31,310 nt of DNA from a virus, in the IMG/VR virus record IMGVR_UViG_3300030090_001388, positions 1 through 31,310 of that record; one strand, 5' to 3'. Both the position numbers and the translations under genes were made by a program. The notes below the pieces were generated by a model, which saw only the letters and a list, made by a program, of their open reading frames with translations, was not told where the DNA came from and did not search any database. This document shows positions 1,933-29,908 of this stretch, one piece after another; the stretch's first letter is position 1, and every line of letters begins with the position of its first letter.

Positions 1933-3720
1933 TTAAATATTAAGTGTGTAGACTTGCAACGGATCTGACTGACCCTTAACAGTAATGGTCTCAACATAAC
2001 GAACCATGTCAGGAACCTTCTTTGCGGTTGGCTCCCCGATAAGAACAGGAACTTCTCCCCTCTTGATCAGCCCCCTAGTTTTTCCCTCCAATCTGGCGGC
2101 GGTATTTACCGTATGGCCCACCACAGAATAGTCAAAACGCTTTTCTGATCCCATGTTTCCGACCACACAAAGGCCCGTATTGATTCCAATGCCCACGTTT
2201 AAACGCTCTATTCCTTCCTCTTCCAGCTCATCATTCAAGAATTTAAGCGCAATTAGCATGTCTCTGGCGGTACAAACGGCTTTTTCCTCGTGGTCATCAC
2301 AGTCAAGCGGAGCATTCCACAGCAAAAAAAGACAGTCTCCGATGTACTTATCCACTGTTGCTCCATTGTTAAGAGCAACGTCTGTAAGGCTTGTCAGGGC
2401 TTTGTTCATAATCCAGACCAATTTCTGAGGATCGTCCTGTAGGCTCTCAGAGAGCGGTGTGAAGCCGACCAGATCACAGAAGAGGAACGTCATCTCTTTT
2501 GTTTCACCGCCTAACACGAGCTTAGAGGGGTCATCCTGTAGCTGTTTCACCAGATCAGGGGAGACATAGGTCCCGAATTGACCCTTGATCTGCATTTTTA
2601 GCCTGTATTCAGTCAGCATTCTCTGGAAAACCCCTGCACCTCCTACCGTCAGGGCAGAAAGCACCGGTAATGAGGCATCTAACAGCATTCCAAACCTTAA
2701 ATACGCCCAAACTGACGAGATTGCCGTTAGAGAGGAGATCGTAAGAATGCCTATCGCCACCCCATAAACAGGCAGAAAACGCGCTGAAAGCGCAGCTAAG
2801 AGAGCCAAAATCAGTAAGACTAGCGTTTCAGCAGCTAATGACCAGTCTGGTCTGACTGGAGAAGAGCCACTCAGGAGAGTCTCAAGAAGATTAGCTTGAA
2901 TCTGATGCGGGAAGAGCTGACCGATGGGAGTTGGAACCAATGGACTTATTCCTGCTGCTGTTACTCCAACGTAAACAATCTTGTTTTCTACATTCTGTTT
3001 AAACGTTGTGTTCCAATCAATCCAAATCCTGCCTGCCGAATCTGTCTGGATCGTGTCATAGGCTGGAATCCTAACCGCTTCGATCCCTGACTCTCCTGCT
3101 CTGACCTGATAACTGGGATCACCTGCCAGACCTCGCAAAACATCCACAGACAGTGCCGGGTATAGCTGCCCCTGCACATTGATCAGGGTCGGAATTCTCC
3201 TCACCAGACCATCTACTTCGGGCGCTGCATTTACTACGCCGGTTCCTGTGGATGCCTCTTGTAATGCTTGAACATTCGGGAGAATACCGCTGTATTGCAT
3301 CGCATTCTCAAGAACAGGCCCCATCGTGGCTACGCCTATATCCCATCCATCACGCCGGTCCGTGTCTGTGGTAGCTACCGCAGAAAGAAAAGTTGGAATT
3401 TCACGCATACTTAAAGCAAATTCTCCATCCTGAAGAAACCGATCCGGCTCAGGAAAAAGAACAGAATAGACAACAGCAATAGCGCCTCTTTCAGCAAGCT
3501 CAGTGTTTAAACTTGCTAAGTAAGAACGAGGCCAAGGCCACTGACCTTTTTCTTCAAGTGCTGCCTCATCAATGTTGTATAAAGCTATAAGTTCGCTGTC
3601 TCTGTCCTCTTGAGAAGTTAAAAGAACATCAAAGTATTTAAGCCTGATTGTTTCTACGGGCCAAGGATCAAAAACTCTGATTGCAACAACAAAGACAATA
3701 ATAGGAATAAGCAGCTTCAT
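1933..3720 (-). CDS. CHASE2-domain class III adenylate cyclase (membrane sensor)
   Basis: The 595-residue membrane protein has an N-terminal transmembrane helix (about 3-17) and an extracytoplasmic CHASE2 sensor domain (about 25-285) with family features such as QWPWPR, then GVVNAAPEVDGLVRRIP. Three transmembrane helices follow (about 297-314, 318-340 and 349-368), then a cytoplasmic class III cyclase domain (about 405-590). Catalytic residues are intact: metal-binding D416 (FCDLVGFT) and D462 (YIGD), purine-selecting K458 and D530, and transition-state N539 and R543 (VNTAARLEG). The K/D pair predicts ATP rather than GTP as substrate, so it should make cAMP. The length is normal for the family, so it appears functional. 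Its ATG shares a base with the TGA of the preceding phage gene (TGATG), so it is translationally coupled into the late operon. Three GTTTAAAC copies lie within it (2197, 2997, 3505). Confidence 0.92.
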   Translation of the reverse strand: MKLLIPIIVFVVAIRVFDPWPVETIRLKYFDVLLTSQEDRDSELIALYNIDEAALEEKGQWPWPRSYLASLNTELAERGAIAVVYSVLFPEPDRFLQDGEFALSMREIPTFLSAVATTDTDRRDGWDIGVATMGPVLENAMQYSGILPNVQALQEASTGTGVVNAAPEVDGLVRRIPTLINVQGQLYPALSVDVLRGLAGDPSYQVRAGESGIEAVRIPAYDTIQTDSAGRIWIDWNTTFKQNVENKIVYVGVTAAGISPLVPTPIGQLFPHQIQANLLETLLSGSSPVRPDWSLAAETLVLLILALLAALSARFLPVYGVAIGILTISSLTAISSVWAYLRFGMLLDASLPVLSALTVGGAGVFQRMLTEYRLKMQIKGQFGTYVSPDLVKQLQDDPSKLVLGGETKEMTFLFCDLVGFTPLSESLQDDPQKLVWIMNKALTSLTDVALNNGATVDKYIGDCLFLLWNAPLDCDDHEEKAVCTARDMLIALKFLNDELEEEGIERLNVGIGINTGLCVVGNMGSEKRFDYSVVGHTVNTAARLEGKTRGLIKRGEVPVLIGEPTAKKVPDMVRYVETITVKGQSDPLQVYTLNI

Positions 3721-4285: not shown

Positions 4286-4523
4286 TTTTAGTCCTCTTGA
4301 ATGATCTGTTCTTAGACTTGGATGTTACCTTGAGGTTGCTGGCTTTTTTGTTTTTAGGATTACCATCTCTGTGATGCACATCCTTTCCGTCTCCCTTGGA
4401 AACCTTACCCTTCTTCTTCATTGTGGCACGACTAGCGTTCCTAGAAGCACGTCTTTTCTTCTGCTTCTTCTTGCCCTGATAATTGTCGTATTCCTTGCGG
4501 TAATTTCGTTTTTTCTTTGGCAT
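4266..4523 (-). CDS. Small basic HNH-like phage protein
   Basis: The 85-residue protein is dominated by Lys and Arg and carries an HNH-like core, GKDVHHRDGNPKNKKASNLK, at about residues 46-65: two adjacent histidines, then Asn residues and a terminal NL. The core is followed by VTSKSKNRSF. HNH endonucleases use this arrangement, but the protein is very short and lacks visible zinc-binding cysteines, so it may be a reduced DNA-binding relative rather than an active nuclease. The same gene commonly lies beside the DUF6321 gene in marine phages, in my recollection. An AGAGG Shine-Dalgarno is placed normally. It follows the second curlin-like gene by 8 nt. Confidence 0.75.
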   Translation of the reverse strand: MPKKKRNYRKEYDNYQGKKKQKKRRASRNASRATMKKKGKVSKGDGKDVHHRDGNPKNKKASNLKVTSKSKNRSFKRTKNARKKA

Positions 4524-4531
4524 CTTGACCT

Positions 4532-5317
4532 CTAATCAAACTGATTTACTGTAACCGTTTTATTACAGCTTGATGTGCAATCAAGCGTTACTGTGTAATT
4601 CTTTACGTCGGTCCCGGTTTGTGTTGCATTTACTGTGTAATTTCCTTGTTTCACAAGTATATTGCCAACGTGTGCGCCATCACCACTTTGCGTTAAGTTG
4701 ACCGTGGAGTTGTCAGCAGGATTGTTTCTGAATTCAATATCCCCATCCTTTGCGCCGCTGCCTGATTGAGTGATCGTGGCATCATTGTTATTGCAGTTAC
4801 CACAGCTTTTAATATAGGCATTGTGATTACCACTACCTGATTGCGTGGCAGTCCATGTGCTGTCATCCCCAAAGGCATAGAATTTGGCGTAATGATTTCC
4901 GCTCCCGGTCTGACTGATTGTATACACGTTGTCATCGCCAGACATATAAATTTCACCATGCTTATCGTTACCAACCTGAGTAACAGTCATCTCGTTTGAG
5001 TCTTGGTCAGCGTCAATGTAGCCAGTGTTATCGTTACCCGTCTGTGTGATCGTATACTCATTGCCAGTGTGATTGGTGTACTGACTATAGGCTTTAGCTA
5101 AATTATCATCGCCATTCTGGTCAATATCTATTTCGGCACTAGAACAAGTATGGGTTGTAAACGTACCGTTGCTCAATCCGCACCACACACGAGCGGTATT
5201 ACCGGTGCCTATTTGGTCTATGTAAATGCTGGTATTAGTGCCTTTTGTGTCTATTTCCACAGAGTTGTTAGCAGCAAAAACGGAGAAACTAGTTAGACTG
5301 ATTAATATAAATCGCAT
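4532..5317 (-). CDS. Curlin-like amyloid repeat protein (CsgA-like), long form
   Basis: This 261-residue secreted protein has a signal peptide (MRFILISLTSFSVFA) and then about nine to ten imperfect repeats of 20-30 residues with the curlin core Q-x-G-x-[GD]-N, for example QIGTGN (35-40), QTGNDN (92-97), QTGSGN (136-141) and QSGSGN (159-164). E. coli CsgA has five repeats, so this would build a longer beta-solenoid subunit. The start at 5317 is chosen over an in-frame ATG at 5332 because a strong Shine-Dalgarno, GGGGGAGG, sits 5 nt upstream and the signal peptide begins there. It overlaps the fecR-like gene by 29 nt. Unusually for a curlin it holds six cysteines, C46/C58, C172/C175 and C247/C251. 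It is the likely major fibre subunit exported by the CsgG/CsgF pair. Confidence 0.85.
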   Translation of the reverse strand: MRFILISLTSFSVFAANNSVEIDTKGTNTSIYIDQIGTGNTARVWCGLSNGTFTTHTCSSAEIDIDQNGDDNLAKAYSQYTNHTGNEYTITQTGNDNTGYIDADQDSNEMTVTQVGNDKHGEIYMSGDDNVYTISQTGSGNHYAKFYAFGDDSTWTATQSGSGNHNAYIKSCGNCNNNDATITQSGSGAKDGDIEFRNNPADNSTVNLTQSGDGAHVGNILVKQGNYTVNATQTGTDVKNYTVTLDCTSSCNKTVTVNQFD

Positions 5318-6368
5318 TATCGCCTCCCCCATTTACTTCTGCCTGTATCTTCACGCCAGCAGTCATTATATCTATCTTATAGGGAGAGCCTTTGTCTAGT
5401 TCTAGGTCAATCGTATTTTCTACATTTCTTACAAAAAACAAGCTAGGCCCGTCTGTAAAGGTGTACACCTGTAACTGTTGGTCAAAGCCGGGAATCACGC
5501 CTTCAATTTCTACACCATCCATCTCATAGACTTTCGCTTGCTTTCTTGACTCAGAGACTTGAACCAGAAGATCGCCAAGGAAATCGACTGCCAGTAAGTC
5601 AATGTCTAATCGCCCCATATCTTCTTCAAGCGCATCTTCATCGAGTTCGTTGTCTTCCAGCGCATCTTCTTCGAGTAAATCCACATCGAGAATATTAGAA
5701 GCTGTGCCACTTTGCTCGTCCACCGCCTCTTGAATTTCATCGGGAGGGCTGACGATTAACAAGTTATTGAGGAAGTTCATGGTCATCCCTTGGAGAATGA
5801 CCGGCGGGGTAGGGGGAGACTCAGAGACAGTGACCGCAGTCGCCTGCCACGGCTCATTCATAACTACCTCGCCAGCCATTGAAGTGACCACTATTTCGCC
5901 GCTAGCTTCACCATTCTCATCAGGCAACAAGATAACCATCGTCTCGCCAATTTCAGATACATGGGTCGTGAACTCCGTCCCACGAATCGCGACGGTGGCT
6001 ACTGGAGTCCTGATAGAAACATTCTCTCTATTGATACGGCCTAGCGCACCTGTCAAAAATCTAGCCGTTCCAGAGGCCATATTGAGAGCTAGACGAGACT
6101 GTGATGGGTCAGGATCAAACACAAAGTCATCAATAACGATGCTGGAACGCTCAGTCAGGCTTACAGTGCTGTCATCTAGGAATGTAATGGATAACCTGCC
6201 GTTACCAGTTCTGACATTATCCATGCTGGCAATACCAAGCTCTAACGCAGCAACTAAGGAATCATCAGAGTCCTCACGAAGCACCTCACCGATGCCGCGT
6301 AGCTCAGAAATAGATCCAACTTGAGCGTTAGCTACAATCGGCAGGAATATCAGCAGCCACTTACACAT
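5289..6368 (-). CDS. FecR-domain periplasmic protein with curlin-like C-terminus
   Basis: The 359-residue protein has a signal peptide (MCKWLLIFLPIVANA) and a FecR domain at about 50-150, recognised from NVRTGNGRLSITFLDDSTV and SIRTPVATVAIRGTEFT. There is no transmembrane helix after the signal peptide, so it is predicted to be periplasmic or exported rather than a membrane anti-sigma factor. A Leu/Asp/Glu-rich repeat segment lies at 227-258. The last 11 residues, DNAIYINQSN preceded by Gly, resemble the first strand of the neighbouring curlin-like protein (NNSIYLTQSG), which suggests that it docks to or templates the fibre. FecR proteins of this type are commonly encoded beside CHASE2-cyclases in bacteria. 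It overlaps the curlin genes on both sides (19 and 29 nt). Confidence 0.85.
   Translation of the reverse strand: MCKWLLIFLPIVANAQVGSISELRGIGEVLREDSDDSLVAALELGIASMDNVRTGNGRLSITFLDDSTVSLTERSSIVIDDFVFDPDPSQSRLALNMASGTARFLTGALGRINRENVSIRTPVATVAIRGTEFTTHVSEIGETMVILLPDENGEASGEIVVTSMAGEVVMNEPWQATAVTVSESPPTPPVILQGMTMNFLNNLLIVSPPDEIQEAVDEQSGTASNILDVDLLEEDALEDNELDEDALEEDMGRLDIDLLAVDFLGDLLVQVSESRKQAKVYEMDGVEIEGVIPGFDQQLQVYTFTDGPSLFFVRNVENTIDLELDKGSPYKIDIMTAGVKIQAEVNGGGDNAIYINQSN
5323..5330 (-). promoter_or_regulatory. Strong Shine-Dalgarno for the long curlin gene
   Basis: On the minus strand GGGGGAGG is followed by a 5-nt spacer and ATG at 5317. It lies inside the 3' end of the fecR-like gene. It decides the start of the curlin gene, and it is among the strongest ribosome sites in the window, which fits high production of a structural subunit. 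Confidence 0.75.
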
Positions 6369-7063
6369 TGATCAATATCAATTACACCGCCAGTTGTCAC
6401 AGCTATTATGTCAACAATCCCGCTGGTTGATCCAGATGCGTGGGTCTGGTCTATGTCGATATTGTTCGTTGACCCCGTAATGTCTGCCGTGATGCTACTT
6501 GATGCATTTCCGGTCTGAGTTGTATCTATATCGTTACTTGAGCCGTCCACATCCCAGTTATTCACACCACTCACCACCTCACTTACGATGTTGAGATTGT
6601 TGCTCGTTCCGGTCACTACGATGTCTGTATTGCCGCTGGTTGCCGTAGCTGCTGCGCCTTGCGTATAGCTCAATACATTTGAATCGCCGGTAGCAGCAAA
6701 GTCAAAATCAGTGGATTGCACATCACCAGACGCACCTAGCGCCAATGTCTGAGTATTGGAATCACCTGTGCTTCTCAAAGTAAAACTGGCAGAGTTAGCC
6801 TGTGCCGCCGTCATCGCAATAGTGTTGCTATCGCCAATCTGATCTATATCAGCCGTAAGCGAAGTACCTGTAAGAGAGACCCTTGCGCTGGTGGTTCCAA
6901 CCACGTTGGAGTTGCCTATCTGGTCGATATTAAGGGTCAGGGCTGTCGAGCCGCCAGATTGAGTCAGATATATGCTGTTGTTGGCAGCATTAGCTGAAAT
7001 GAAATAGGCAAGTGAATACAAAAGAAACAAGTAAACAAAGCAGCTTTTAATCAGTAATCTCAT
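6350..7063 (-). CDS. Curlin-like repeat protein, short divergent form (possible nucleator)
   Basis: The 237-residue protein starts with a long signal peptide (MRLLIKSCFVYLFLLYSLAY, cleavage near ANA-ANN) and then NNSIYLTQSGG. Repeats of about 23-27 residues follow, with cores QIGNSN (48-53), QIGDSN (75-80), STGDSN (98-103), ATGDSN (124-129), VTGTSN (150-155) and VDGSSN (172-177). The central repeats have lost the glutamine of the curlin consensus, so it may be a nucleator (CsgB-like) or minor subunit rather than the main fibre; that assignment is inference. It ends in a cysteine pair (C233, C237). The start at 7063 is chosen because AAGGAGGT lies 5 nt upstream and the ATG overlaps the csgG stop (ATGA). 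Confidence 0.8.
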   Translation of the reverse strand: MRLLIKSCFVYLFLLYSLAYFISANAANNSIYLTQSGGSTALTLNIDQIGNSNVVGTTSARVSLTGTSLTADIDQIGDSNTIAMTAAQANSASFTLRSTGDSNTQTLALGASGDVQSTDFDFAATGDSNVLSYTQGAAATATSGNTDIVVTGTSNNLNIVSEVVSGVNNWDVDGSSNDIDTTQTGNASSSITADITGSTNNIDIDQTHASGSTSGIVDIIAVTTGGVIDIDQCVSGC

Positions 7064-7875
7064 TCTGAACCTCCTTGTGGGGTATAGTCCCACATATCCT
7101 GCTGAATGCCTTGATGCACCAGTTCCAGAACTGCCGCTTCAATGGCACTTCTAACTGCATAGGTCGCAGTCTCGTTTCTGGCAGCCCCTGCTTCTATCTC
7201 AACGAGTTCAGTTCCGCCAGTTTCTGTAAATATAAAGGTATCAAAGTTTGTCGCCGTTGAATATATCTGCTTACTAGTGATCACATTCAACAACACCTGT
7301 CCCGTTTGAACGAGAACGGCTCTCAGAGACACGGTAACCTCATCCACTCGGTACTGTGCGCTTGCACCTATACCCAAATAACGCGCCCCTGCACCGCCAC
7401 TTAGAAGGTTTGTATCGTAGCCAATAATCCCGCCTGCGAGTATCAATCCTGAAAACAATAGTGGCTCTAGTTCATTAGCGCCCTCTCCATCATAATTGTT
7501 ACGGGTTGAGATAATTAACTGCCGTTCTCTGGTCAAAACGTCAAGATTTGCGCGTTCTGCAACCAAAAACCACGTACCGTTTCCGGCTGACATTAAGGCG
7601 TCAATCAGAAAAGAATCCGCCCCCTGAGTTACGGCAGTTGAAAACAATGCCATGTTATCGGCTGTAGCACGTTGACCTGTTTGATCTGCAAAAGAATAGA
7701 CACTCACTACAGCCTTTTGACGAGGCATCGGCAAGTTCTGAAGATCAGTCAGAGTTGGTCTTTCTACCCGTGGCTCTGGTGAGCAGTAATTACTTAAAGT
7801 GCCGCATGTATACGGGTCAACGCTAACGCACCCTGAGACTAAGAGTCCCATAGCACATAAAGTTAGAGAGCGCAC
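7060..7875 (-). CDS. csgG: CsgG-like outer-membrane curli secretion lipoprotein
   Basis: The 271-residue protein matches CsgG in length (277 in E. coli) and through its whole body: lipobox LVSGC with C16 as the lipid-bearing residue, then VVSVYSFADQTGQ (56-68), FSTAVTQGA (78-86), ERANLDVLTRERQLI (107-121), GGIIGYDTNLLSGGAGARYL (148-167) and DEVTVSLRAVLVQTGQVL (178-195). CsgG forms a nonameric outer-membrane channel for unfolded curlins. In the constriction loop the Phe before STAV is retained (F78), but the E. coli Tyr and Asn positions appear to be Asp or Asn and Leu here, so gating may differ. The start is a GTG without a clear Shine-Dalgarno, overlapping csgF by 13 nt, so translation probably depends on csgF. 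An extra cysteine pair (C24, C31) follows the lipobox. Confidence 0.93.
   Translation of the reverse strand: MRSLTLCAMGLLVSGCVSVDPYTCGTLSNYCSPEPRVERPTLTDLQNLPMPRQKAVVSVYSFADQTGQRATADNMALFSTAVTQGADSFLIDALMSAGNGTWFLVAERANLDVLTRERQLIISTRNNYDGEGANELEPLLFSGLILAGGIIGYDTNLLSGGAGARYLGIGASAQYRVDEVTVSLRAVLVQTGQVLLNVITSKQIYSTATNFDTFIFTETGGTELVEIEAGAARNETATYAVRSAIEAAVLELVHQGIQQDMWDYTPQGGSE
7069..7076 (-). promoter_or_regulatory. Consensus Shine-Dalgarno AAGGAGGT before the first curlin gene
   Basis: AAGGAGGT on the minus strand is 5 nt from the ATG at 7063 and lies in the last codons of csgG. It fixes the start of the curlin gene ten codons inside the longest open frame and predicts much stronger initiation than at csgG, whose GTG start has no clear ribosome site. 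Export channel and subunit would thus be made in unequal amounts. Confidence 0.75.
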
Positions 7876-8333
7876 TCGTCTGTACTACAGATGCCAAATG
7901 ATCCGACAGGTATGCGGATCTCCGTAATTCCTCCGTCAAGGTCAGTCACTAAAAGAACAATCTCTGTGCCCGTATTAACGAAACTAATTTGATTTCCCTG
8001 AAGATCAAATACTCCACCGGAACCACCACTCTCGCTATTGAAAAGAGAGTTAGCTAAATCCTGTGAAAGTTGAGCAAAGATGCGGCTTTCAAGGTTTCTG
8101 ACGAACTTAGCTAAAGTAGTATTTTCCTCTGCTCGAAGTATATCTTCTGCCTTGGATTCAAGTTCATCCAGTATTTCAGCTTTACGGGTTCTTTCCTGCT
8201 CATCAATCGTTAAATAATGCGCAGACTGACCAAACCCACTAAAAGAAGGGTTACTGAAGGTGAAAACCAGATCGGTTGCTTTGGCTGGAACTGCAAACAG
8301 GCTAATCGTTATTAACATCAACCACTTTTTCAT
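7863..8333 (-). CDS. csgF: CsgF-like curli secretion and assembly accessory protein
   Basis: The 156-residue protein has a signal peptide (MKKWLMLITISLFAVPAKA) and the CsgF N-terminal signature TDLVFTFSNPSFSG. In E. coli this segment plugs the CsgG channel, and the rest of CsgF forms a cap at the cell surface that couples secretion to nucleation. The middle contains a charged helix (about 44-75) and the C-terminal half strands such as GTEIVLLVTDLDGGITEIRI. It is slightly longer than E. coli CsgF (138) and ends with a cysteine pair (C149, C154). The AGGGAG ribosome site lies inside the preceding holin-like gene, and the two coding regions overlap by 32 nt, so the curli module is fitted closely to the phage lysis genes. 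No csgE is found next to it. Confidence 0.88.
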   Translation of the reverse strand: MKKWLMLITISLFAVPAKATDLVFTFSNPSFSGFGQSAHYLTIDEQERTRKAEILDELESKAEDILRAEENTTLAKFVRNLESRIFAQLSQDLANSLFNSESGGSGGVFDLQGNQISFVNTGTEIVLLVTDLDGGITEIRIPVGSFGICSTDECAL

Positions 8334-8565
8334 CTTTCTGCTCCCTTAGCTCAATCACCGTGTCAAGTTTCTGCTGTAACCGTATGATGTCATTATCAAG
8401 CATACGACATCTGTCTATGAGTTTAATCAACGTGACGTTAGCCTCTGCCAGTTTTGTCTTAATATTATTGGTTATAAAGTTCCAGATAAAATGGATCATG
8501 TACAGCAGACCGACAGTCGCTACTATCGGAAAACCGTACTCGCTGATTGCTGCGGCTACATCCAT
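8302..8565 (-). CDS. Small membrane protein with coiled coil, holin-like
   Basis: The 87-residue protein has one N-terminal transmembrane helix (about 11-32, GFPIVATVGLLYMIHFIWNF) followed by an amphipathic, coiled-coil-like tail with the phrase CRMLDNDIIRLQQ. The pattern repeats that of the preceding gene (FPI plus hydrophobic helix, then MNHDIVRLD), so the two look like paralogues. They sit next to endolysin and spanin genes, so a holin or pinholin partner role is likely, but this rests on position and topology. Its 3' end overlaps csgF by 32 nt. Confidence 0.65.
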   Translation of the reverse strand: MDVAAAISEYGFPIVATVGLLYMIHFIWNFITNNIKTKLAEANVTLIKLIDRCRMLDNDIIRLQQKLDTVIELREQKDEKVVDVNND

Positions 8566-8846
8566 TAATCTCTTCTTGCATCTTCTTTCCCATCGGCTCT
8601 GGCAATTCTGTTCAGATCGGGCCTGATCCCAAGAACACTACACATTGTTGCATCAAGCCTAACAATATCATGATTCATGGTTTTTACTCTATTATCAAGA
8701 GCTTGGACAATGCCATGTATTCCGTTGACCTGACCTATAACCGATTCTAAGATGTACTTGATCGTCAGGAATATGAAAAATCCTGCAATCAACGCAATAG
8801 CAATCGGGAACCCAACGTCACCGATCAGGGCAAAAGCCTCGTTCAT
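8565..8846 (-). CDS. Small membrane protein, holin-like (paralogue of the following gene)
   Basis: The 93-residue protein has a single predicted transmembrane helix (about 10-33, GFPIAIALIAGFFIFLTIKY) and a cytoplasmic tail with a predicted coiled coil (NRVKTMNHDIVRLDATM). BhlA-type phage holins share this one-helix plus charged-tail design. It overlaps the upstream gene by 4 nt (ATGA) and the downstream paralogue by 1 nt (TAATG). The duplicate pair may act as a holin and a regulator, which is inference. Confidence 0.65.
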   Translation of the reverse strand: MNEAFALIGDVGFPIAIALIAGFFIFLTIKYILESVIGQVNGIHGIVQALDNRVKTMNHDIVRLDATMCSVLGIRPDLNRIARADGKEDARRD

Positions 8847-9154
8847 TCTTCCTCGCCCTTAAACTTCTTGGATTGCCCAGAGGTTCCAGCGTAAATTCCA
8901 AAGACAGCGCCCATAGCTCCAACAATTATAGAGACCAAGCCAGCCTGCTCCAGATTAGGCTCTTCCAAGGTCATAAACCACAGGACAACCTCATAAACAA
9001 GATAGATGTATACGCCCACAAAGATTCTCGGAAAAATTCTCCATGCATCAACAGTTCTCGCTAGATGTATCCACCGTTGATAAGGATTTACCCCTATGTT
9101 GTTAGGGGTGACTTCTACCTCAAGATCAATTTTCTTTTTTATTGGTTCATCCAT
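8843..9154 (-). CDS. Two-helix membrane protein, candidate holin
   Basis: The 103-residue protein has a charged N-terminus and two hydrophobic helices, about 45-62 (FVGVYIYLVYEVVLWFM) and 74-92 (GLVSIIVGAMGAVFGIYAG), separated by the short acidic loop EEPNLEQA. This shape and loop are familiar from small membrane proteins in the lysis region of marine podoviruses, where they are usually called holins. With the two genes downstream there are three small membrane proteins in a row, and which one makes the lethal hole cannot be decided from sequence. Confidence 0.65.
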   Translation of the reverse strand: MDEPIKKKIDLEVEVTPNNIGVNPYQRWIHLARTVDAWRIFPRIFVGVYIYLVYEVVLWFMTLEEPNLEQAGLVSIIVGAMGAVFGIYAGTSGQSKKFKGEEE

Positions 9155-9156
9155 AG

Positions 9157-9546
9157 CTACTCTTCCTCTTGATCTCTCGTTGGATCATTATCACGATAAT
9201 ACTTAATGATGTTTAAACTCTGTCTGATATACCGCCTAATATCGGCTAGGTTATTCGCTAGGTTTTCATAGGCTTGAGAGGTAAGCGCATAGTAAGCCAG
9301 AGCAGGTGCATTACCCTCATCGTAATTATCAATGTATTCCCTCATCACACTCGGATTAAGGACTACCCACTCTATTTCAGCAGGATTAACCGCTTCAGGA
9401 AGTGTGGGATGATACATGGGAGCCGGTTCTGTAATAGTGACAATCTCTACCGGAGCTACTTCCGGCACAGCCGGAGGATCACTAAACAGATTGCCTAAAG
9501 TAGAACAACCACTAAGAAAAACACTACTCAGTAACAGGTACTTCAT
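9157..9546 (-). CDS. Lipoprotein in lysis cassette, candidate outer-membrane spanin (Rz1-like)
   Basis: The 129-residue protein has a lipoprotein signal (MKYLLLSSVFLSGC, C14 as the lipidation site), a Pro/Val-rich linker (about 24-55), and a helical C-terminal domain containing VVLNPSVMREYIDN and NNLADIRRYIRQSLNIIKYY. Its start overlaps the upstream Rz-like gene by 23 nt in another frame, the usual layout of inner and outer spanins. It is longer than classical Rz1 (about 60 residues), so it may be a different lysis lipoprotein. It contains one GTTTAAAC copy (9211-9218). Confidence 0.6.
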   Translation of the reverse strand: MKYLLLSSVFLSGCSTLGNLFSDPPAVPEVAPVEIVTITEPAPMYHPTLPEAVNPAEIEWVVLNPSVMREYIDNYDEGNAPALAYYALTSQAYENLANNLADIRRYIRQSLNIIKYYRDNDPTRDQEEE

Positions 9547-9943
9547 CGAATTGCCTTGGGTTAGTTAGATCAACGAACTGTTGGTGTACCTGTGCAGTAC
9601 CTCGGTTTACAACTCCCTCAATAAGTCCCGGACGGGCGATAGCAAGGTTATTGAGATCATGTCGAGCAAAGGTGTTGCGCATCTCAGAGACCTCCTGACG
9701 AGCCTCATCATTAGCCTCGGTTAGCTCTGTAATCCTTAACTGATTTTCTCGTTGGGCTTGTAGCTGCTCTTCTAGCTGAGTATTTTGCTGAGAAATAGTA
9801 TTCTCAAGAACTTCCTGATTATTAACTGAGGTTTGAAGCTCTACCTGAAGTTGCCCTATTTGAGCTTTCTGCATATTGATATAAAAGTAACTGCCTCCAG
9901 CAGTAGCGATTAACAAAAAACCTAGAGCAATACTAAGATTCAT
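9524..9943 (-). CDS. Rz-like inner-membrane spanin
   Basis: The 139-residue protein has an N-terminal membrane anchor (about 3-23), a long Gln/Glu-rich coiled coil (about 26-95) and a conserved-looking C-terminal block, FARHDLNNLAIARPGLIEGV followed by NRGTAQVHQQFVDLT. This is the organisation of Rz-type i-spanins, which link the inner membrane to an outer-membrane lipoprotein and fuse the membranes at lysis. Its 3' end overlaps the lipoprotein gene, and it follows the endolysin gene by about 100 nt. Confidence 0.72.
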   Translation of the reverse strand: MNLSIALGFLLIATAGGSYFYINMQKAQIGQLQVELQTSVNNQEVLENTISQQNTQLEEQLQAQRENQLRITELTEANDEARQEVSEMRNTFARHDLNNLAIARPGLIEGVVNRGTAQVHQQFVDLTNPRQFDEVPVTE

Positions 9944-10010
9944 AGAGCAATACCATAATTGTTAAAGCAACAAACCATCGAACAGCAACAATAGCTTCCC
10001 TGTCAGACAT
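9933..10010 (-). CDS. Possible 25-residue transmembrane protein
   Basis: A short open frame, MSDREAIVAVRWFVALTIMV and a few further residues, fills the space between the endolysin and Rz-like genes and overlaps the latter's start by 11 nt. It has one hydrophobic helix with a charged N-terminus. No convincing Shine-Dalgarno is seen. The position in the lysis cassette and the overlap make it plausible as a small lysis protein, but it may be chance. Confidence 0.35.
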   Translation of the reverse strand: MSDREAIVAVRWFVALTIMVLLYES

Positions 10011-10041
10011 ACAACAACATAAACATCGGCACTTACGCATC

Positions 10042-10482
10042 CTACTCAATATATCTACCAGTTCTTATCATTTCAGTCAGCGTTTTAGCCCTGTTCCCAA
10101 CCTGAGAGGACCATCTTGAATCAAGAAACTCATCAGCAGCCGCTCTCCAATTTTTACTAGCCATTGCCGCAAGAGCATTTTTAAAAGCTCTTAAACGTGT
10201 TTGACCAAGATTAAAGCTGATATCAATCATTGCATCTTGCCTAACCGAATCAAGGTCGGAAAACCATGAATACTCTGAGTCAAGCTCAACATAAACCCTA
10301 TCTATATCATTTTGCAGAAGATAATCTATCTCATCTTCGGATAGACCAATGCCGCCTTCAGGATCTATATTTCTTCCCACGCCAACAGTGATCTTGGATG
10401 CACTGCATTTATAAGCATGGGATTCGACTCCCTCATGTATCTTGAGCATTTTTATTAATTTGCTTGAAGTTTTATCGTTCAT
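10042..10482 (-). CDS. GH24 (T4-type) endolysin
   Basis: The 146-residue protein is a T4-lysozyme family muramidase that cleaves peptidoglycan at lysis. The catalytic triad follows the E-x8-C/D-x5-T pattern: E17 (HEG), C26 (AYKC) and T32 (ITVGVGRN), so the middle residue is Cys rather than Asp, a known variant in the family. Later motifs DAMIDISFNLG and FKNALAAMASKNWRAAADEF fit the C-terminal lobe. No signal peptide or anchor is present, so it needs a holin. Its start overlaps the giant gene's stop by 4 nt (ATGA). A GGGA-type ribosome site lies upstream. Confidence 0.93.
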   Translation of the reverse strand: MNDKTSSKLIKMLKIHEGVESHAYKCSASKITVGVGRNIDPEGGIGLSEDEIDYLLQNDIDRVYVELDSEYSWFSDLDSVRQDAMIDISFNLGQTRLRAFKNALAAMASKNWRAAADEFLDSRWSSQVGNRAKTLTEMIRTGRYIE

Positions 10483-13400
10483 TTTTGTCTTTCCCTTTGT
10501 TCATCTGAAAGCAAAGCTCTATAAAGGTTAGGGCTAGGAGTAACACTTTGAATAAGCTCTTCAAGAACTTGCATTTGTAACTCTATTTCCTTATCAAAAG
10601 ACAGCAGTCTTCTTCTTCTTTCTTCACGAGACATGCTTCTATCTTGAAGCATTCTATTTCTTGCTGTAGTTGTTTTCTGTAGTTCTTGTTGAGCATAATA
10701 AACAACGTTAGAAGCAGTTTGTGGATCTATACTGTAAAGGTTTAATCCTGCAAATTTTAATGCTGCCTGAGTAACCGTGTTTCCCTCTCCTCCTCTGGAG
10801 GATCTTTGACCAGAAGAAGCATCAATTAATCGCTTGGTTGCTCCATAGTCTGTATGAAGAAATCCGGGCAACATATATTGATTAGCTAAATAAAGTATTG
10901 TGTCTGTTACCTGACCACGGCCCTGAAATAGCTCTTCTTTTGCCCCTCCAATCCATAAAGGCTCACCTTCTTTTCTAATTGGTTGCAAAGTAAATGGATC
11001 TATATTCGTTAAGGGGCCATGCAAAGCCCATAACGGACCTCCAAAAAGACCAATAGTGCTTATAATATCCTTCCCATTTATCCCTTCCTTTTGTGGACCC
11101 GGAGCAAGCTGTTTTACCCCTTTGATAGCCTGATAGGAAAGGTCTGTGAAAGCTCCCCACGGAAAAATAAAACCAAGGTCAATTAACTGAACCCTGCCAT
11201 TAGAGTCTCTTATAGGAAGGGGGAACGTTGCGCCGGGATTCTTAGCAAAATCAGGCAAAAGATTCAGCATTGTTTCATATTCTTCATCGTCAATATCAAA
11301 CATATTCTTAAATACTGCCTCAAGTCCCAACATCATTCCCACATAAGGAGCAAACTTAAAGGGCCTGTTTATAGCGGTATCTAATAAAACAGGGGCAACT
11401 TTATAATAAAAAGTTAAAAACGGAATACCTATAGGACTTGTCCTAGTACCTCTTACAAAAGGAGGCACAAGAGAATAATCAAATAAATATTTCTGAGCTT
11501 TTAAGAAAGCCTCATCAGCCGTACTCTGCTGATGCTCCATCATATCCAAGGCAATAGCAGTTTTACCCATAACCTCTATATTTTGATACCACTGACCAGA
11601 CTTCTTCATAATCTTTCTGAAAGTCTTTATGTTCAACCAATTAAGAATTCCAGCGTCTTCAATGGTAACTTCATTAAGCATCTGCTCAATATCTTCAACA
11701 AATCTATATAGCTCTGATTCAGTAAACGAGGCTTCTGCAACCCCCCTATCAAGCATCGCTTTGTAATGCTTAGATTTTTCCATTGCCTCAGCAAATTCTT
11801 GCTCAGACATTTTGTTCTTATTTTTTACCGCGTTTTTATAGGCAATTATTTCTCTGACTGACTTAGCCATATTTGGCAATATCCTGTGCATTGGAACACC
11901 GGATAGATGCATAAGAATCATATTAGAAAAAGTATTACGGGCAACTGTCGGAGGGTTAAGAGGAACCTTGATTCCTTTCCATATAGCTGTTGCCTTTCTT
12001 GCAGCTTTTCCTAGCTTGGTATAGGAGTTGTCTCCCCATCCCGTGTAACTTACACCGGTAATAACATCATCATAAATAGTTGAATGAACAGCCATGCCAG
12101 CAAGTTTTCCATACTTAGGATGATTAGGAACCCGTTTAAACGACTGCCCTCCAGCAAGAATCTCTAAACCGCCGGGATCTATTGCGTCTAACTTTTTAGG
12201 ATCTACATTTTGATTGGAATCAAGAACTGCTCCAAGACCTAACTCTTTGGCATATTGCTGCAAAACAGGAATATAAGCCTCTCGTAACATTTGAGCCGTA
12301 GCAATCATTTCCTGAGCTTTCTTTTGATCTCCATCTTGAAAATACTTTGCGTTATTTTCAAAGTCTTGGGCTGCTCTGTGCATCCAAAAAACAGAATCTT
12401 CCATCTGTTTTCCAGTGTTAGGATCTATCCATTTAACCATCAATTTGTCGTCTTTTAATGCCCAATTTTTTCCTTTTGATATAGAATCAAAAAACTCCAT
12501 CAGGGCTATATCTCTCATGGATCTCTGTATATGCCTTCCAACAACAAATTCTGGAGCGAGTTCAGTTAAATCTCCAAGTAAATTACGAGTTGTAACATCA
12601 TCTACAGGGATTTTTTGTTCTTGCAAATAAGAAAGGGATTTTCCAGATGGATCTGCCAAAATATGTTTAAGATACATTTGGGGCATGTAAGATCGCTTAT
12701 TTGATTCAAACGTATCTGGTCGTAAAAGACCCCTTGAAACGAGTTCTTTTCCTATATCCTCAATAACATTTTTTGCCCTGACAGCAGACTTAGCCACATT
12801 TTTATCTATTGCCTGAAGTACCTCTAACCTAGAAGCCTCTCCATCAGCAGGAGAGGTTGTCATATAAGAAACAAGCGCCTTACGTAAATTTTCTGAGTCT
12901 GCTCTCTTTTTAGGATTTCTTTTATCAAGATAGGGAGCAAGGTCATTTCTTAATCGTAGGGCAAACTCTTCTACTCTATGTATAGTTCCTAAAAACTTTC
13001 CACGTTCCAGAAGATATTTTTCCCTGTCATGCAAGCCTTTAAGAGGTTGTGCTACGCTGCTATCCAGCCAATTGGTTATTTTTGATCTTGTATTATCAAA
13101 TAAACGTTTTCTTTCTCTAGCTCCAGACCTTCCTAAAGCTGCCATAGAATAGGCAACAACATCGGTTCCGCTTTCCCCGCCTTTTCTGTCAGTCATATCA
13201 GAAGTTATTGGAAAATATGTGCTTGAATTATTAGCAGCAGAAACTATTTGCCTACCTCTTGACACCTGTTCAGGAGGAAGGTCTAGGGGATCTATATCTC
13301 CTACCTCATACATTCCAGATTCTTCTGCAATTTGACGTGCTAATATTTCTTCATCTGTAAGGGGTTGCTGCTCTAAAGTCTCTTCAAAAAAAGTTTCAAT

Positions 13401-16400
13401 ATTAGGTAAATCAGCCATTTCATCAGGAGAAACGATCCTTGCTCCTGTTGGCCCCTCTCCAAACCAAACTACCTGCTTATTTTTTTTGTAATCCTTTTTC
13501 TCTCTATTTGAAAAAGTTCTTGTTAAATTTTCTCTAAGCTGATTCGGTATTTGATGATCGTACATCTGGACAAAACCAGAGATTCCTACAGGTATATCTA
13601 TAGAACCATCCGGTTTTCTTGCATTGGAAAGGTTCCTTCTTGATGTCTCACTAAAATACTTATTAAAAAGATTTAAAGTCTCTGTATCCACAGTTTCCTT
13701 AGACATAAGTCTTTTCTCAAGATCCAGAACCTCTTGGGTTGTTTCGTTAATAAACTCAATGATATTGGGGATTTCCAGAGTTTCCTGATCGTTTTCAAAT
13801 TGGGCTTGCTCTTGCTTATAAAGAACAAGATTTGCAACATCTTCTCCTATCCAATTATTAAACTTTCGTTGATCAAATCTTTTTGGTCTGTCTTTTCGTA
13901 TAGGACCTATATCAGTAGGAACAGAATATTGCACTTGATAGCCGTCTTCGGCATTTTGAAGTCGAGTTATAGACAGTCCAGATATATGATCTTTAAAGTT
14001 CTCCCAGTACCTTTCTTTCTGAAAATTAGAATTAGCAACAGTTATTCCATCGTAGCCTCCGTCAACAGCGATTCTGACAGCATGACTAAGACCTAGATTT
14101 ATCCATTCAGATTGTTTTTTAAATGGCAAATTTGGATAGCTACCGTCCTTTCCATAAACCCGATCCTCATGTTTAGCAAGGTTTTTTCTTACTTCATTTT
14201 TTTGTGTTCTGTTTAAACGAGACCATGTGTTTCCACGTCCGTACATAGATTCTGCTGCAATATCTCTTATTTGTGCGCCTGCTCCCTGATGTATATCGGA
14301 TTGAACCTCTTCAACAACTAAAATTTTCTTTCCGTCTTCTGTGAGAATATCGGAAACACGAATATGAACTATAGGATTTTTAATGTTTCCGGTATGCCCT
14401 TCAGCATAATAGTTAGGTATTGTCTTTCCCTTATACAAATCAGAGGGAACATCGACAGGAGAAGAAATAACAATCATTCTAGCGCTTTCAGGGCCTACCT
14501 TATATTGATCCCATGAATCATAAAAATCTTCAGAAACCCTTCTTTTGCCCCATACCGTGTAATCTATAAATGGAGGACTTATATCAAGAAATCCTTCTCC
14601 AGCAACTGGAGCAGGACCCTTCTGAGCTATTGGCAAAACCCTAGACCTTGGATCACCTTGAAATTCTTCTGGATTACGAAGTCCAAAAATTCTGCGTTGT
14701 GCTTGTTTTATTTCATCTTGATAGTTAGTAATATTTCGATCTTCTAATGGAGATGTGCCTGCTCTTGTTGCGAGAGCTTCCCATAAATCAGAGATTTCTT
14801 TTATGTCACCGATACTCCGAGGCATAAGGCCAAAATCACTAAGAATAGCGTTTTCTTTAAAGCCATCTTCAGCAATTTCAGCAAAAACATCTTCTGAATT
14901 AATTCTCTGACCAATTTGTCTTTTTAAGACAAAATCCTGCAAATCCGACAACGCCTCATTTTTTAACTCTTCAAATCTAGGATCATTATCTAGCTCATAA
15001 AAGACACTATCTCCATCGCTTGTACGACCTAGAAATCTTGGATTAGGCTCTCCATCTATAATCTCTCTGTTGTCAAAAAACTCATCAAAAAGCTCCTTGT
15101 TTTCTTTTCTTAGCCCTTCCCATTTTTCATAGATAGGTTTTATATCTTCAGGAAGTTTGTTTGGCTCTCCAGATTTTATCTGCTCTGAGCTAAGAACACT
15201 CATAAGCGTTCTAAAGGGATATATTTTTGAAAAATATCTTCCGTACTGAATGTAGTTTTCTCTCAACTGATCTTCTGCCATTGACAAAGCAATCTGATCC
15301 GTTGATGAAAGCCTAGCGTCTTCGGTATATCCAGCTACATGTATCTCTACTAAGTGAGATTCTTTTTTTAATTCTTCTAAAAGCTGCTTCTTAGTTATTT
15401 TTTCGTCAAAGTTTCTTGAAAGAAAATCAGGAAGCTGAGAGTTGAGCAATTCAGCCATTTTAAAGTCACCCCTAGATACAGCACCTGCAAGAAGTCCTGA
15501 CTTTATTGGGATTCCGTTATTGTCTTTTTTTCCTAAAGTATCAAGCCATTCAGATCCTTTGGCAGAATTTTGTGTCTTTTTATCTTCCAGAAAAGATGTA
15601 AGCTCAGATTTAAGGCGATAGTTATATTGTTTTGCTGCTGCTTTACCCATGTGAATCATAGGCAAAGGGCTGTCATCTGCGGTTCCACTTGGATCAATAC
15701 GGCCTATAGGCTCTTGTGTCCCAATCTCCCCTTTTCTAACCATATCGAGCAAAGACTTTATCTTTGCTTCCTGAGCTGCAAGTTCAGAAGGAGTAAAAAG
15801 CTCCAGCTCGGCAGTCAGGGAGTCTTTATCAGTGCCATTTATAAACCGTCCAATCCGTTTAAACAGATTATAGATGGAATCGAGTATTCTTCTCAGGGGT
15901 CCTTTATCAAGCTCTTTGGTAAGTACGTCAGGTGGCTTGCCGTTTCTTTCCATTGCGCTGTTATAGTACCCGGATGTATATGCCAGCAGCTCCTGAATAT
16001 CTGTTTCTGTTCCCGGCTCAATATCCTTGAACGCAAGACTGTAACCATCTTCGCCAAGTAACTCTTGAACTACGCTTCTTAACTTGGCGCGAGTCTCTGG
16101 TAAGTCAATATAGTTTTGTTGTTCTTCTGTAAAAAATCCTTCTCTTAGAAGATAGTGAGTTGCTTCATGGAAAGCGGCGTTTTGAGGATCAGCATATTCA
16201 TTTTCTGCGGTTGAGACGGCAACTATGTTTCCAATCTGACGGCCCATAACAGGAATACCGTTTTGGTCAAATAAACTATTTGCTATCCTGCCATCAGCGT
16301 TAGGAGCTGCCTTTTTAATAATATTGTTGATACTAGTTGCTATTGCTATGTCTACGTCTGTAGGGTCTCCTAACATAGGCTCAAGTATTGTTCCTTGAGA

Positions 16401-19400
16401 GCCTTCCATAGGCAGCAAACTTCTTCCCGTCCTAGTATACCAATCAGCCCAAACTGCCGGAGAGTATCCCCTCTTTTTAAATTCAGCAGCAATGTTTTCT
16501 ATAGAAGATCTAGGGGTTACTATTTCACCGCTTTCCCTTGGCCCTTTTTCAAGATAATGTCTAAAGGTTTCTGCCACCATCGTATCAATATCAACATCTG
16601 GCCTTTGTCTCCAAGACTCCATGCCCATATCAATAAAATTAGGAGCTATACCTAGTTCTGCTGCTCTTGACCTAAATTCTTTTAACTGATCAACAGTTAT
16701 AGGTGATGTAACCTGTATTGTTTCTGACAAAGGAACATTGATAACCTGAGATTCTGGAGATGCCTCCAGAACAGGGTTAATCAACTCATTCTTTATTTGC
16801 TTCCCTTTAGCTCTTAATTCTTTAACAGTAGGTTTTTTTCCGTTGTTCTGTAAAAAATGCCTTTGAAGGAAGTTTATATATTTTTTGTCTCTTGTCCTTT
16901 GCTCTTTCCCTTCGGGGGTGTTTGCCTTACCTTTGGGAGGGGCTGCAACCTCATGCAGAGCCTTGTCAACTTCAGAAGCAAAAACCAATTCCTGATTAGT
17001 GTCAGGAATAGTTATCCTCTCTTGTCCTAAGTCATCGGGAAGTCTCTGGGCAAGAGGAGAAAAGCCTCTAATACCATTCCTTGCTGTATCAAAAGACTCT
17101 TCAGTAAGATTGTATTGATTCTGTAACCTATCCAGCTCTAATAAAGGATCTGCCATTTCTTCAACGGGAACTGTTTTAACTGTTACGCCAGCGTTATCAG
17201 TAACTCTTAAAGTCTTATCTGCCTTTATAAAATCAACATTAAATAAAGGAGACTTCTTCTGTTTATTTCTTGCTACAGACTCATTGCCAATCTTTTCTAT
17301 TAACTGGGCGCGTTGATCTCCTGTCATACCAATAACAGAGCTTGAAGGGTTTCCTGTAACCTCCTTAATAAGAGGCTTTAAGTCTTTTTTATTAAGACTA
17401 GAATTAGCAAGAGCTTGATCTACATCATAAATACGCTTACCCGCCGCATGATCATTAACAAAATCACCAAAACTTCCAAGTTCAAATCCATCCCAATCTG
17501 CCGGAGGCGTTCCTTCTTCTTTTAACCTCTGATTATCTTGTTCGACTTCTTTATTGTTCTGAGCTGCATATGATCTTGATAAGGTTTCAAACTCCTTGAT
17601 ATCTAGGTTATAGTTTTTAGCAGCATTCTGTTCTTGTTGACTGGGATTTTTTGTTCCTCTTGTTCTACCTCTCCTATAGGCAATATCGCTGTAAATATCA
17701 GGAGCGTTAATCTCTCGTGAAACCCCTTCTTTGCGGTATTTTACAGTTGGAACAAGCGATGTTTGTTGGGACTCTTCTGCTTGCCTTTGTTTAACTAGCT
17801 CATCTGTACGCTCTTTTATTCTATTATCAAATCTATCGCCTGCCTCGTCTCCAAATTCTCGGCGAACAGTTGCTCCCATATCCTCAGCATCGTAACCAAG
17901 TTTGGTATCTTCAGCGCGGCGATCAATCTGGGCTAACTCTTCTGCTGTAAGACCTTCAATTTCTGCTGGTCTAGTGTCTACTCGTTGAGCCACTGATGGT
18001 TGAGTTTCTGCTGTTTCTGCGTCTGTAAGAATTGCGTCAACGCCAGTCTTTAGCTTTCCGTCTAATTCCTCATCATAAACACGTTGGTCTTCAGCCTTAA
18101 CAGGAGCAGTCTCTGAGTTGTTTTCTACTGGTGTTGGCTCGTCAACCCTTCCTTCTTGGTCTGTTCCTTCCCGATAAATTCCCCGCCTGTTATTTTCAAT
18201 AGCAAGAGCAGTGTAATCAGACTCTTGCTGTGAAGTAGGATTATCTGTTAGTCGCCAGTCTTTTTCTTTTTGAACAAGAAGATTATTTACTTCTTGATCG
18301 CTTAAAGTTCCTATCTCAACAGAACCAGAAGGTTGATTGTTTTCATCAACTGTTCCTATCCGATACTTCGGAGTATAGATATTCTCATTCCCAAACAGAG
18401 AAAATCCCTGATCCCCAACTCCATCCTGCGGATCTCTGGGAACCGAAATAGATTCGCCGGTACTGTTTATTCTTACTCTGGCATTGTCTCCTTCTATCCC
18501 TTCAAAAGTTCCTTGCTGTGGGTTTCCATTCTTATCATATAAGGTAAGATTTTCTACTTTCTGTAGCTCTTCTTCAGAAGCAACAGGAGGTAATTTTGTT
18601 CCCTCATAGCCTGCTTGTACTTGCTCTGCTGTTGGTCTAGGACCCCCTCTAAGTCTGCTCCCCTTACCACTTAGCAATAGATCAAAGATTGCACCTGCAC
18701 CAGCACCATAGCCAAAATCTTCTGATAAAGAGCTATCAAACCAGTCCATATCAGGGTTATATCCGCCTATATGTGTAGCATTGATTCTCTGTAAAACTTG
18801 AGCGCCAGCTTCCTGAAGGCCCTCCATTCCTCCGTTTACAAAGGCGCTTGTCATTTTATTGACAATCCAACTTGGACTGTTGCCTTTTGGGAAACCCCTT
18901 AAAACGCTCTCTATAGGCACTAACTCGGTAAGCCCAATAAGGCCACCCGTAGCTATTGATAAATTTCTTTGTCCTTGGGTGTAATCCCCTCCTGCTTCTT
19001 TAAATGCCGCCATCATTTGGCTTGATTCGCCTGCTCCGGCAGAGCCTGCTGCTGACCATTTTAAAGCGCCTAAACCTCTTGCAAAATTTCTTGCTTGTTG
19101 AGCTGCCTTTAGAGCAGCCGGTCCACTTGCAGCAAGTGTTGCCGCTCTTCCAGCCATTCCAGCCTGACCTAATCCGGGTATGGCAAAAAGGAACATACTG
19201 CCTACTGCTTCAGAGAGCTTTCCAACCACCCCTTCTTCGTTGCCTACGAATTCTCTGGCTTCTTGTAGGATCTCAAAAGCCCTGCTTGTATCGGGATCTA
19301 TCCCCTCAATATTACTTCCGGTTACAACATCAGCCATTGCAAGGAGTCCTTCTCCCATACTAATAGCTGTTTGTCCTACTCCTTTGGCAATTCCTCTAGG

Positions 19401-29212: not shown

Positions 29213-29908
29213 CTAAGCAGCTAAGTCTGTATTCCAAACGTTAAGGTTTGCAGCAACCGTCCTTCTTTCTCCCGGCCCTTCAAACGGATAGACCATGTGC
29301 TGAAGCCAGCTAGGAAATAAATACAGCTTGCCAACCTGTGGCTGTAACGAAGTGGATTGAGGTGGACATAAACGCTCTACATCCATCAAAGAATTTTTAC
29401 CATATTGAAAGCATAAGTACCCATCACAAGCCCCACTAGAATTGTAAAGGCTATAATTTGGTGTGCCTGCTGTTGGCTGATCCAGTATTTGCTGTGGAAC
29501 CTTTGTCCAAGTTGTTATTGAGATTCCCATTATCGTTTTAGTTCCATGATCATGAATAGGGTTATAGTCCCTTTCAAAAGAATGAACCGACCAAAGCTCA
29601 TCGACCTCAACTTTTCTGGTTCCAGTAAGCATATTTCCAGTCTGTTGACCAAAATGTTTAAGATACTCAATGCCAAGACCGCAGATTAGATCAGAAAACT
29701 CCTTTAACTCAGGAACTTCGTGATTCATCGTCAACTGCTGTCCGTGCTTAATCTGACCCACCAGAGTTCCTGCATGGGAGCGACGTTCCTCGCTCTCAAG
29801 CAACTCATCAAGATACTGATTTAGATTAACCACCATCTCGCTTGGCAGGTCTGTCTCCAGCATAAATGCTGCTGGCAATGTCCAGATATTGACGTTTATA
29901 TCAGCCAT
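29213..29908 (-). CDS. 2-oxoglutarate/Fe(II)-dependent oxygenase-like protein
   Basis: The 231-residue protein fits the double-stranded beta-helix oxygenases found in many marine phages (2OG-FeII_Oxy_5-like). Candidate iron ligands are H119 and H121 in NPIHDHG and H204 in WLQHMVYPF; R215 or R216 in GERRTVAANL is placed to bind 2-oxoglutarate. KLYLFPSWLQH is the typical strand before the distal His. Such enzymes hydroxylate proteins, nucleotides or small molecules; the substrate here is unknown. The position within the tail genes suggests modification of a virion protein or a role late in infection. It is coupled to the upstream gene by TAATG. Confidence 0.82.
   Translation of the reverse strand: MADINVNIWTLPAAFMLETDLPSEMVVNLNQYLDELLESEERRSHAGTLVGQIKHGQQLTMNHEVPELKEFSDLICGLGIEYLKHFGQQTGNMLTGTRKVEVDELWSVHSFERDYNPIHDHGTKTIMGISITTWTKVPQQILDQPTAGTPNYSLYNSSGACDGYLCFQYGKNSLMDVERLCPPQSTSLQPQVGKLYLFPSWLQHMVYPFEGPGERRTVAANLNVWNTDLAA

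Follow-up and report, generated by a model that had tools for sequence, protein, structure and literature searches.

A predicted CHASE2-class III adenylate cyclase at the end of a phage curli module, and a possible route from curli to cAMP

A phage curli (type VIII secretion) module ends with a gene for a predicted CHASE2-class III adenylate cyclase, and we propose, with a probability of roughly 0.4, that this enzyme is an envelope-sensing output of the module. The module lies in a stretch of 31,310 nucleotides (hereafter the window; positions 1 to 31,310 of the IMG/VR record IMGVR_UViG_3300030090_001388). Phage curli modules with a cyclase are already known, and the window copy is a further example: Wittmers et al. 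2022 (PMC9599517) described such a module, which includes genes for FecR and an adenylate cyclase, from myoviruses as well as from nine podovirus-type pelagiphages, and the cyclase gene is already annotated in HTVC008M (KC465899) and Melnitz (MZ577097). Our analysis adds to these descriptions the CHASE2 identity of the module's sensor and the recognition of FecR and CHASE2-cyclase as a common bacterial neighbourhood. It also adds what looks new relative to published accounts, a FecR protein ending in a fibre-subunit-like strand; the text of PMC9599517 mentions neither CHASE2 nor this C-terminal strand.

Genes for CsgF and CsgG were reported in ocean phages by Zaragoza-Solas et al. 2020, and a role of CsgGF in lysis was proposed by Buchholz et al. 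2022. The functions suggested for the curli genes of abundant ocean phages include sibling capture, lysis timing, and uptake, and there is no agreement among them (PMC7029224, PMC9004378, PMC9599517). The cyclase, found at the end of nearly every such module, and the fibre-like strand of FecR provide defined, testable parts for this question. If the proposal is true, a phage would be monitoring amyloid secretion and signalling its state through cAMP. The cited literature contains no biochemistry on any phage copy of the cyclase.

The cyclase gene and the curli module

The cyclase gene begins with ATG and encodes 595 amino acids on the minus strand, while the plus strand over the same interval is full of stops. 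Pfam searches placed CHASE2 (PF05226) at residues 9-310 (E 1.2e-36, 127 bits against a cut-off of 26.3) and Guanylate_cyc (PF00211) at residues 407-547 (E 3.6e-17, above the gathering cut-off). Combining hydropathy with an AlphaFold2 model (mean pLDDT 89), we assigned residues 1-22 to a transmembrane helix, about 25-290 to a periplasmic CHASE2 domain, about 294-382 to three long transmembrane helices, and 406-595 to the cyclase; CHASE2 is thus predicted to lie in the periplasm between the N-terminal helix and the further membrane helices. The model shows the N-terminal helix, a mixed alpha/beta CHASE2 domain, the three long helices, and a cyclase fold that superposes on CyaC, Cya2, and Pseudomonas aeruginosa CyaB (TMt 0.84-0.89).

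The first-pass annotation, which gave no strand, had claimed intact CHASE2, transmembrane, and class III cyclase domains with six named catalytic residues. Pfam, hydropathy, and the model all bear out the domains, and D416, K458, D462, D530, N539, and R543 are found exactly as claimed, completing the class III set of two metal-binding aspartates, the Lys/Asp pair for ATP, and the Asn/Arg pair for the transition state. Read from its sequence, the ORF is an intact CHASE2-class III cyclase with ATP-type residues, and its product is predicted to be a membrane enzyme that makes cAMP from ATP. The full-length PHROGs family for this protein, phrog_35576, is annotated as of unknown function.

The cyclase, the rest of the module, and the genes upstream of it are as follows, in the direction of the minus strand:

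10482-10042, minus: lysozyme, upstream of the module
9943-9157, minus: spanin-like overlapping pair (hydropathy, lipoprotein start, gene overlap)
9154-8843, minus: holin-like protein (hydropathy, gene overlap)
8565..8846, minus: TM1, small membrane protein of 93 aa (phrog_18771), conserved at the module head
8302..8565, minus: TM2, small membrane protein of 87 aa, conserved at the module head
7863..8333, minus: CsgF (Pfam CsgF, E 4.3e-18)
7060..7875, minus: CsgG, outer-membrane pore lipoprotein (Pfam CsgG, E 3.6e-48)
6350..7093, minus: first curlin-repeat protein, with degenerate repeats (Curlin_rpt 20.5 bits, just missing the cut-off of 20.7)
5289..6368, minus: FecR-domain protein of 359 aa with a signal-peptide-like N-terminus (Pfam FecR, PF04773, E 5e-11)
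5292..5318, minus: curlin-like strand NAIYINQSN at the FecR C-terminus, residues 351-359 (motif, conservation)
4532..5332, minus: second curlin-repeat protein, CsgA/B-like (Pfam Curlin_rpt, E 6e-13)
4523-3720, minus: small genes, including an HNH endonuclease, between the second curlin gene and the cyclase
1933..3720, minus: CHASE2-class III adenylate cyclase

The first curlin protein was aligned with its HTVC008M and Melnitz homologues, and the second obtains a better signal peptide from an in-frame ATG at 5317. Across phage loci the order is conserved as TM1-TM2-CsgF-CsgG-curlin-FecR-(curlin)-cyclase. The window has the layout of the pelagiphage type VIII secretion module, with csgF, csgG, a curlin-repeat gene, and fecR in order and then the cyclase. 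It shares the genes and their order with HTVC008M and Melnitz, but differs in the extra small genes, one of them the HNH endonuclease, that precede the cyclase. The small leading genes were named histidine kinases in PMC9599517; judged by position, TM1 and TM2 are these genes. Pfam found no kinase domain in either, and each has a hydrophobic N-terminal stretch.

The attribution to a phage genome also held. The record is classed as viral and contains virion-protein genes, and the cyclase lies near csgG on the strand that carries the virion and lysis genes. Given these virion genes and the close relatives found in hundreds of viral contigs, we rejected contamination or host DNA as the source. 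The strand that the curli module shares with the virion genes fits late expression of the module, and expression of curli and FecR in metatranscriptomes was reported in PMC9599517. A 610-aa virion protein matches phages of the DSL-LC04, Roseobacter CRP-901, and HTVC023P types at 31-40%.

A probable lysis cassette (8843-10482) lies directly upstream of the curli module, in which spanin and holin are names that we give to genes that look like these by hydropathy, lipoprotein start, and gene overlap. A single ORF of 3105 aa at 10479-19796 probably encodes an internal virion or ejection protein, and a 2OG-Fe(II) oxygenase-like protein is encoded at 29213-29908, within the virion gene region. No tRNA was found in the 31-kb record.

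FecR, its C-terminal strand, and bacterial neighbourhoods

By its predicted layout, the phage FecR is a periplasmic FecR-domain protein and not an anti-sigma factor. The window FecR has a signal-peptide-like start followed by the FecR domain, with the anti-sigma N-terminal domain and its transmembrane helix absent, and none of the neighbouring genes examined was recognisable as coding for a sigma factor. In structure comparison, the fold resembles the periplasmic domains of the FecR-type anti-sigma proteins PupR and BDI_1681 (best E 1.9e-3).

The C-terminus of this protein resembles a curlin strand in its half-repeat motif and in spacing, and the FecR model places a strand at residues 352-357. 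All 184 complete phage FecRs carry a loose motif, h.x.h.x.Q, within their last 16 residues, although these loci came from different searches, some are possibly one contig, and the independent phages are somewhat fewer. The strict form, N.h.h.Q, was found in 52 of 59 phage FecRs, as against none of 278 control ORFs and none of 247 other module proteins. Among 39 phage FecRs, 26 residues are invariant, Q357 being one of them, and the last two motifs lie 21-22 residues apart in 34 of the 59, the curlin period being 22-23. Ten FecR C-termini compared with the curlin profile (PF07012, Curlin_rpt) gave no match at E 10, and we therefore do not claim membership of the curlin family for the tail. Position-weight scores of the tails had a median of 9.1, against a control 99th percentile of 6.0; since only two tails beat the control maximum, the claim is based on motif, position, and conservation.

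We considered whether the tail could be a by-product of the overlap with the second curlin gene. This is disfavoured: the tail persists in three loci (L035, L051, and L070) that showed no curlin gene overlapping the end of FecR. Six FecRs whose contigs extend far enough downstream, yet show no cyclase in the next 6 kb, also keep the tail, which may therefore serve curli alone.

Unlike the phage proteins, the bacterial FecRs examined (14 of 14) have no curlin-like tail. The pairing of FecR with a CHASE2 sensor is nevertheless shared with bacteria. In Burkholderia contaminans, the gene for a periplasmic FecR-domain protein adjoins that of a CHASE2 sensor in the BiofilmReg operon, which is tied to biofilm (PMC5192318); its output is a histidine kinase, whereas that of the phage is a cyclase. 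Closer to the phage arrangement, FecR-domain genes stand beside CHASE2-cyclases in Alphaproteobacteria: among the matches listed, 31 of 100 alphaproteobacterial CHASE2-cyclases had a FecR gene no more than 5 kb away, where about 0.6 would be expected from random placement in 4-Mb genomes, observed and expected values both being approximate.

An alphaproteobacterial origin of the module was proposed by Wittmers et al. (PMC9599517). As a possible source, we looked for a bacterial curli operon already holding FecR and cyclase, and saw neither gene in three alphaproteobacterial curli loci; nor were curli genes seen beside the bacterial CHASE2-cyclases inspected. The phage module resembles what would be expected if a curli operon had been fused to the FecR/CHASE2-cyclase pair seen in bacteria.

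Occurrence, conservation, and exchange among viruses

Phage-encoded membrane cyclases had been described as rare in the first-pass annotation, and for isolates this stands: full-length matches occur in 6 of 50,697 phage isolate records, representing two lineages, HTVC008M (two records) and Melnitz (four records), with the surrounding module checked in one record of each. It fails for marine viral contigs, in which the gene is common, relatives being encoded on at least 493 IMG/VR stretches. The gene had also been suggested as one to look for in other phages with csgG, and it is indeed there: where a phage CsgG locus has 7.5 kb or more of sequence after it, FecR is present in 40 of 40 cases and the cyclase in 38 of 40, these loci being the nearest to the window, so that the fraction may drop further away.

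The window cyclase is 39% identical to that of HTVC008M and 35% to that of Melnitz. All six catalytic positions are kept in 77 of the 79 viral homologues that cover them, and the median pairwise dN/dS is 0.125 (369 pairs), with values of 0.07-0.15 for the neighbours of the cyclase in the module. By this measure, the phage cyclases are under purifying selection, and together with the breadth of the IMG/VR occurrences the ratio argues for more than a chance presence. Broken or altered copies exist in a few contigs (L074, L020). The Melnitz cyclase (L003:8962-11013) has Ser at the positions of N539 and D530, plus a C-terminal extension, and may be inactive; the loss of N539 in this isolate implies that activity is not needed in every phage.

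The cyclase has evidently been swapped by recombination, separately from FecR. Between the window and one related locus, L018, the CsgG, curlin, and FecR proteins are 93-96% identical (FecR 96%), as against only 62-63% for the cyclase, and the L018 cyclase is 96% identical to that of another locus, L014. DNA identity between the window and L018 falls from 87% to 69% near 4509-4523. Five contigs from MAGs named Flavobacteriaceae, Rhodobacteraceae, and Pirellulales (L084, L085, L086, L087, and L092) carry the phage module or cyclase and look like misbinned phage contigs.

A putative route from curli to cAMP and its alternatives

We propose the following sequence of events. The phage would express the curli secretion module in its host, with CsgG and CsgF forming an outer-membrane pore that exports the two curlin-repeat proteins. 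FecR, encoded between both curlin genes, would be exported to the periplasm, where its C-terminal strand could pair with curlin subunits or fibre edges. It would then report the state of curlin to the periplasmic CHASE2 domain, which would in turn switch the class III homodimer on the cytoplasmic side and alter cAMP in the infected cell, and this cAMP would act through a host cAMP receptor. In the complete circuit, the CHASE2 cyclase would be under the control of FecR, whose strand would read the curlin subunits or fibres; cAMP in the infected cell would then track the state of the phage's curli and perhaps the timing of lysis. Taken whole, this circuit strikes us as rather doubtful. The sequence-level basis of the proposal consists of the intact cyclase with its ATP-type residues and domain layout, the conserved order of the genes, the purifying selection, the strand in FecR, and the frequent pairing of FecR with CHASE2-cyclases in bacteria; from these we infer the contact of FecR with curlin or CHASE2, the signal and its sign, the late timing, and the target of cAMP.

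That FecR might read curlin and act on CHASE2 is suggested by analogy with the Burkholderia FecR/CHASE2 operon and with the CHASE2 cyclases of Sinorhizobium meliloti. CyaD1, CyaD2, and CyaK of that species likewise fuse CHASE2 to a class III cyclase, and they signal an outer-surface event as cAMP (PMC13001267, PMC5498481): cAMP rises on a signal perceived via the outer-membrane protein NsrA (PMC13001267), and CyaD1 with CHASE2 deleted produces cAMP constitutively (PMC5498481). In that system NsrA serves as the outer-membrane partner and the CRP-family protein Clr as receptor, whereas the neighbours in the phage are CsgG/curli and FecR.

The closest competitor holds that an active auxiliary cyclase raises cAMP to reprogramme host metabolism, that CHASE2 senses a signal other than curli, and that the FecR strand caps or anchors the fibre. 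We regard this as a real possibility, though at less than even odds. In its favour, the cyclase is intact and under purifying selection, the tail persists in the six modules without a nearby cyclase, and recombination moves the cyclase separately from FecR and the curlins, which argues against a finely matched FecR-cyclase interface. Set against this are the near-constant presence of the cyclase in the curli cluster (38/40) and the enrichment of FecR/CHASE2-cyclase pairs in Alphaproteobacteria, with no curli genes beside the loci inspected.

A second alternative is the reading of Wittmers et al., in which cAMP activates genes for curli or biofilm, much as csgD is controlled by CRP-cAMP in E. 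coli. Such control of csgD is known in Gammaproteobacteria, as cited in PMC9599517, but CsgD is absent from these phages according to the same paper, and the curli genes concerned are the phage's own, on the virion-gene strand. Moreover, the suggestion in the first-pass annotation of a phage step under cyclic-nucleotide control, such as curli export, found no support: no cNMP-binding domain was detected in the eight records searched (the window record, HTVC008M, Melnitz, and five other related records). We thus consider activation of curli by cAMP unlikely. The architecture instead suggests a putative flow from curli state to the cyclase, the reverse of cAMP controlling curli export. If cAMP acts, it probably does so through a host receptor, or else through a protein that escapes the domain search; we found nothing usable in the literature on cAMP and CRP in Pelagibacter.

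A different cyclic nucleotide as product (cGMP or a pyrimidine cNMP) is very unlikely, and so is a role in defence or counter-defence signalling. Class III cyclases do vary in substrate, and Cya2, a close structural match, is a guanylyl cyclase; however, almost every viral copy retains K458 and D530, the residues characteristic of ATP use, and the adjoining genes are for curli rather than defence. Least credible, and already disfavoured, is a functionless passenger captured with the module: the Melnitz copy without N539 and the few broken or altered genes would suit it, but the dN/dS of 0.125 and the intact catalytic residues in 77 of 79 homologues do not, and many viral contigs besides the myovirus-type isolates retain the cyclase, as those isolates do.
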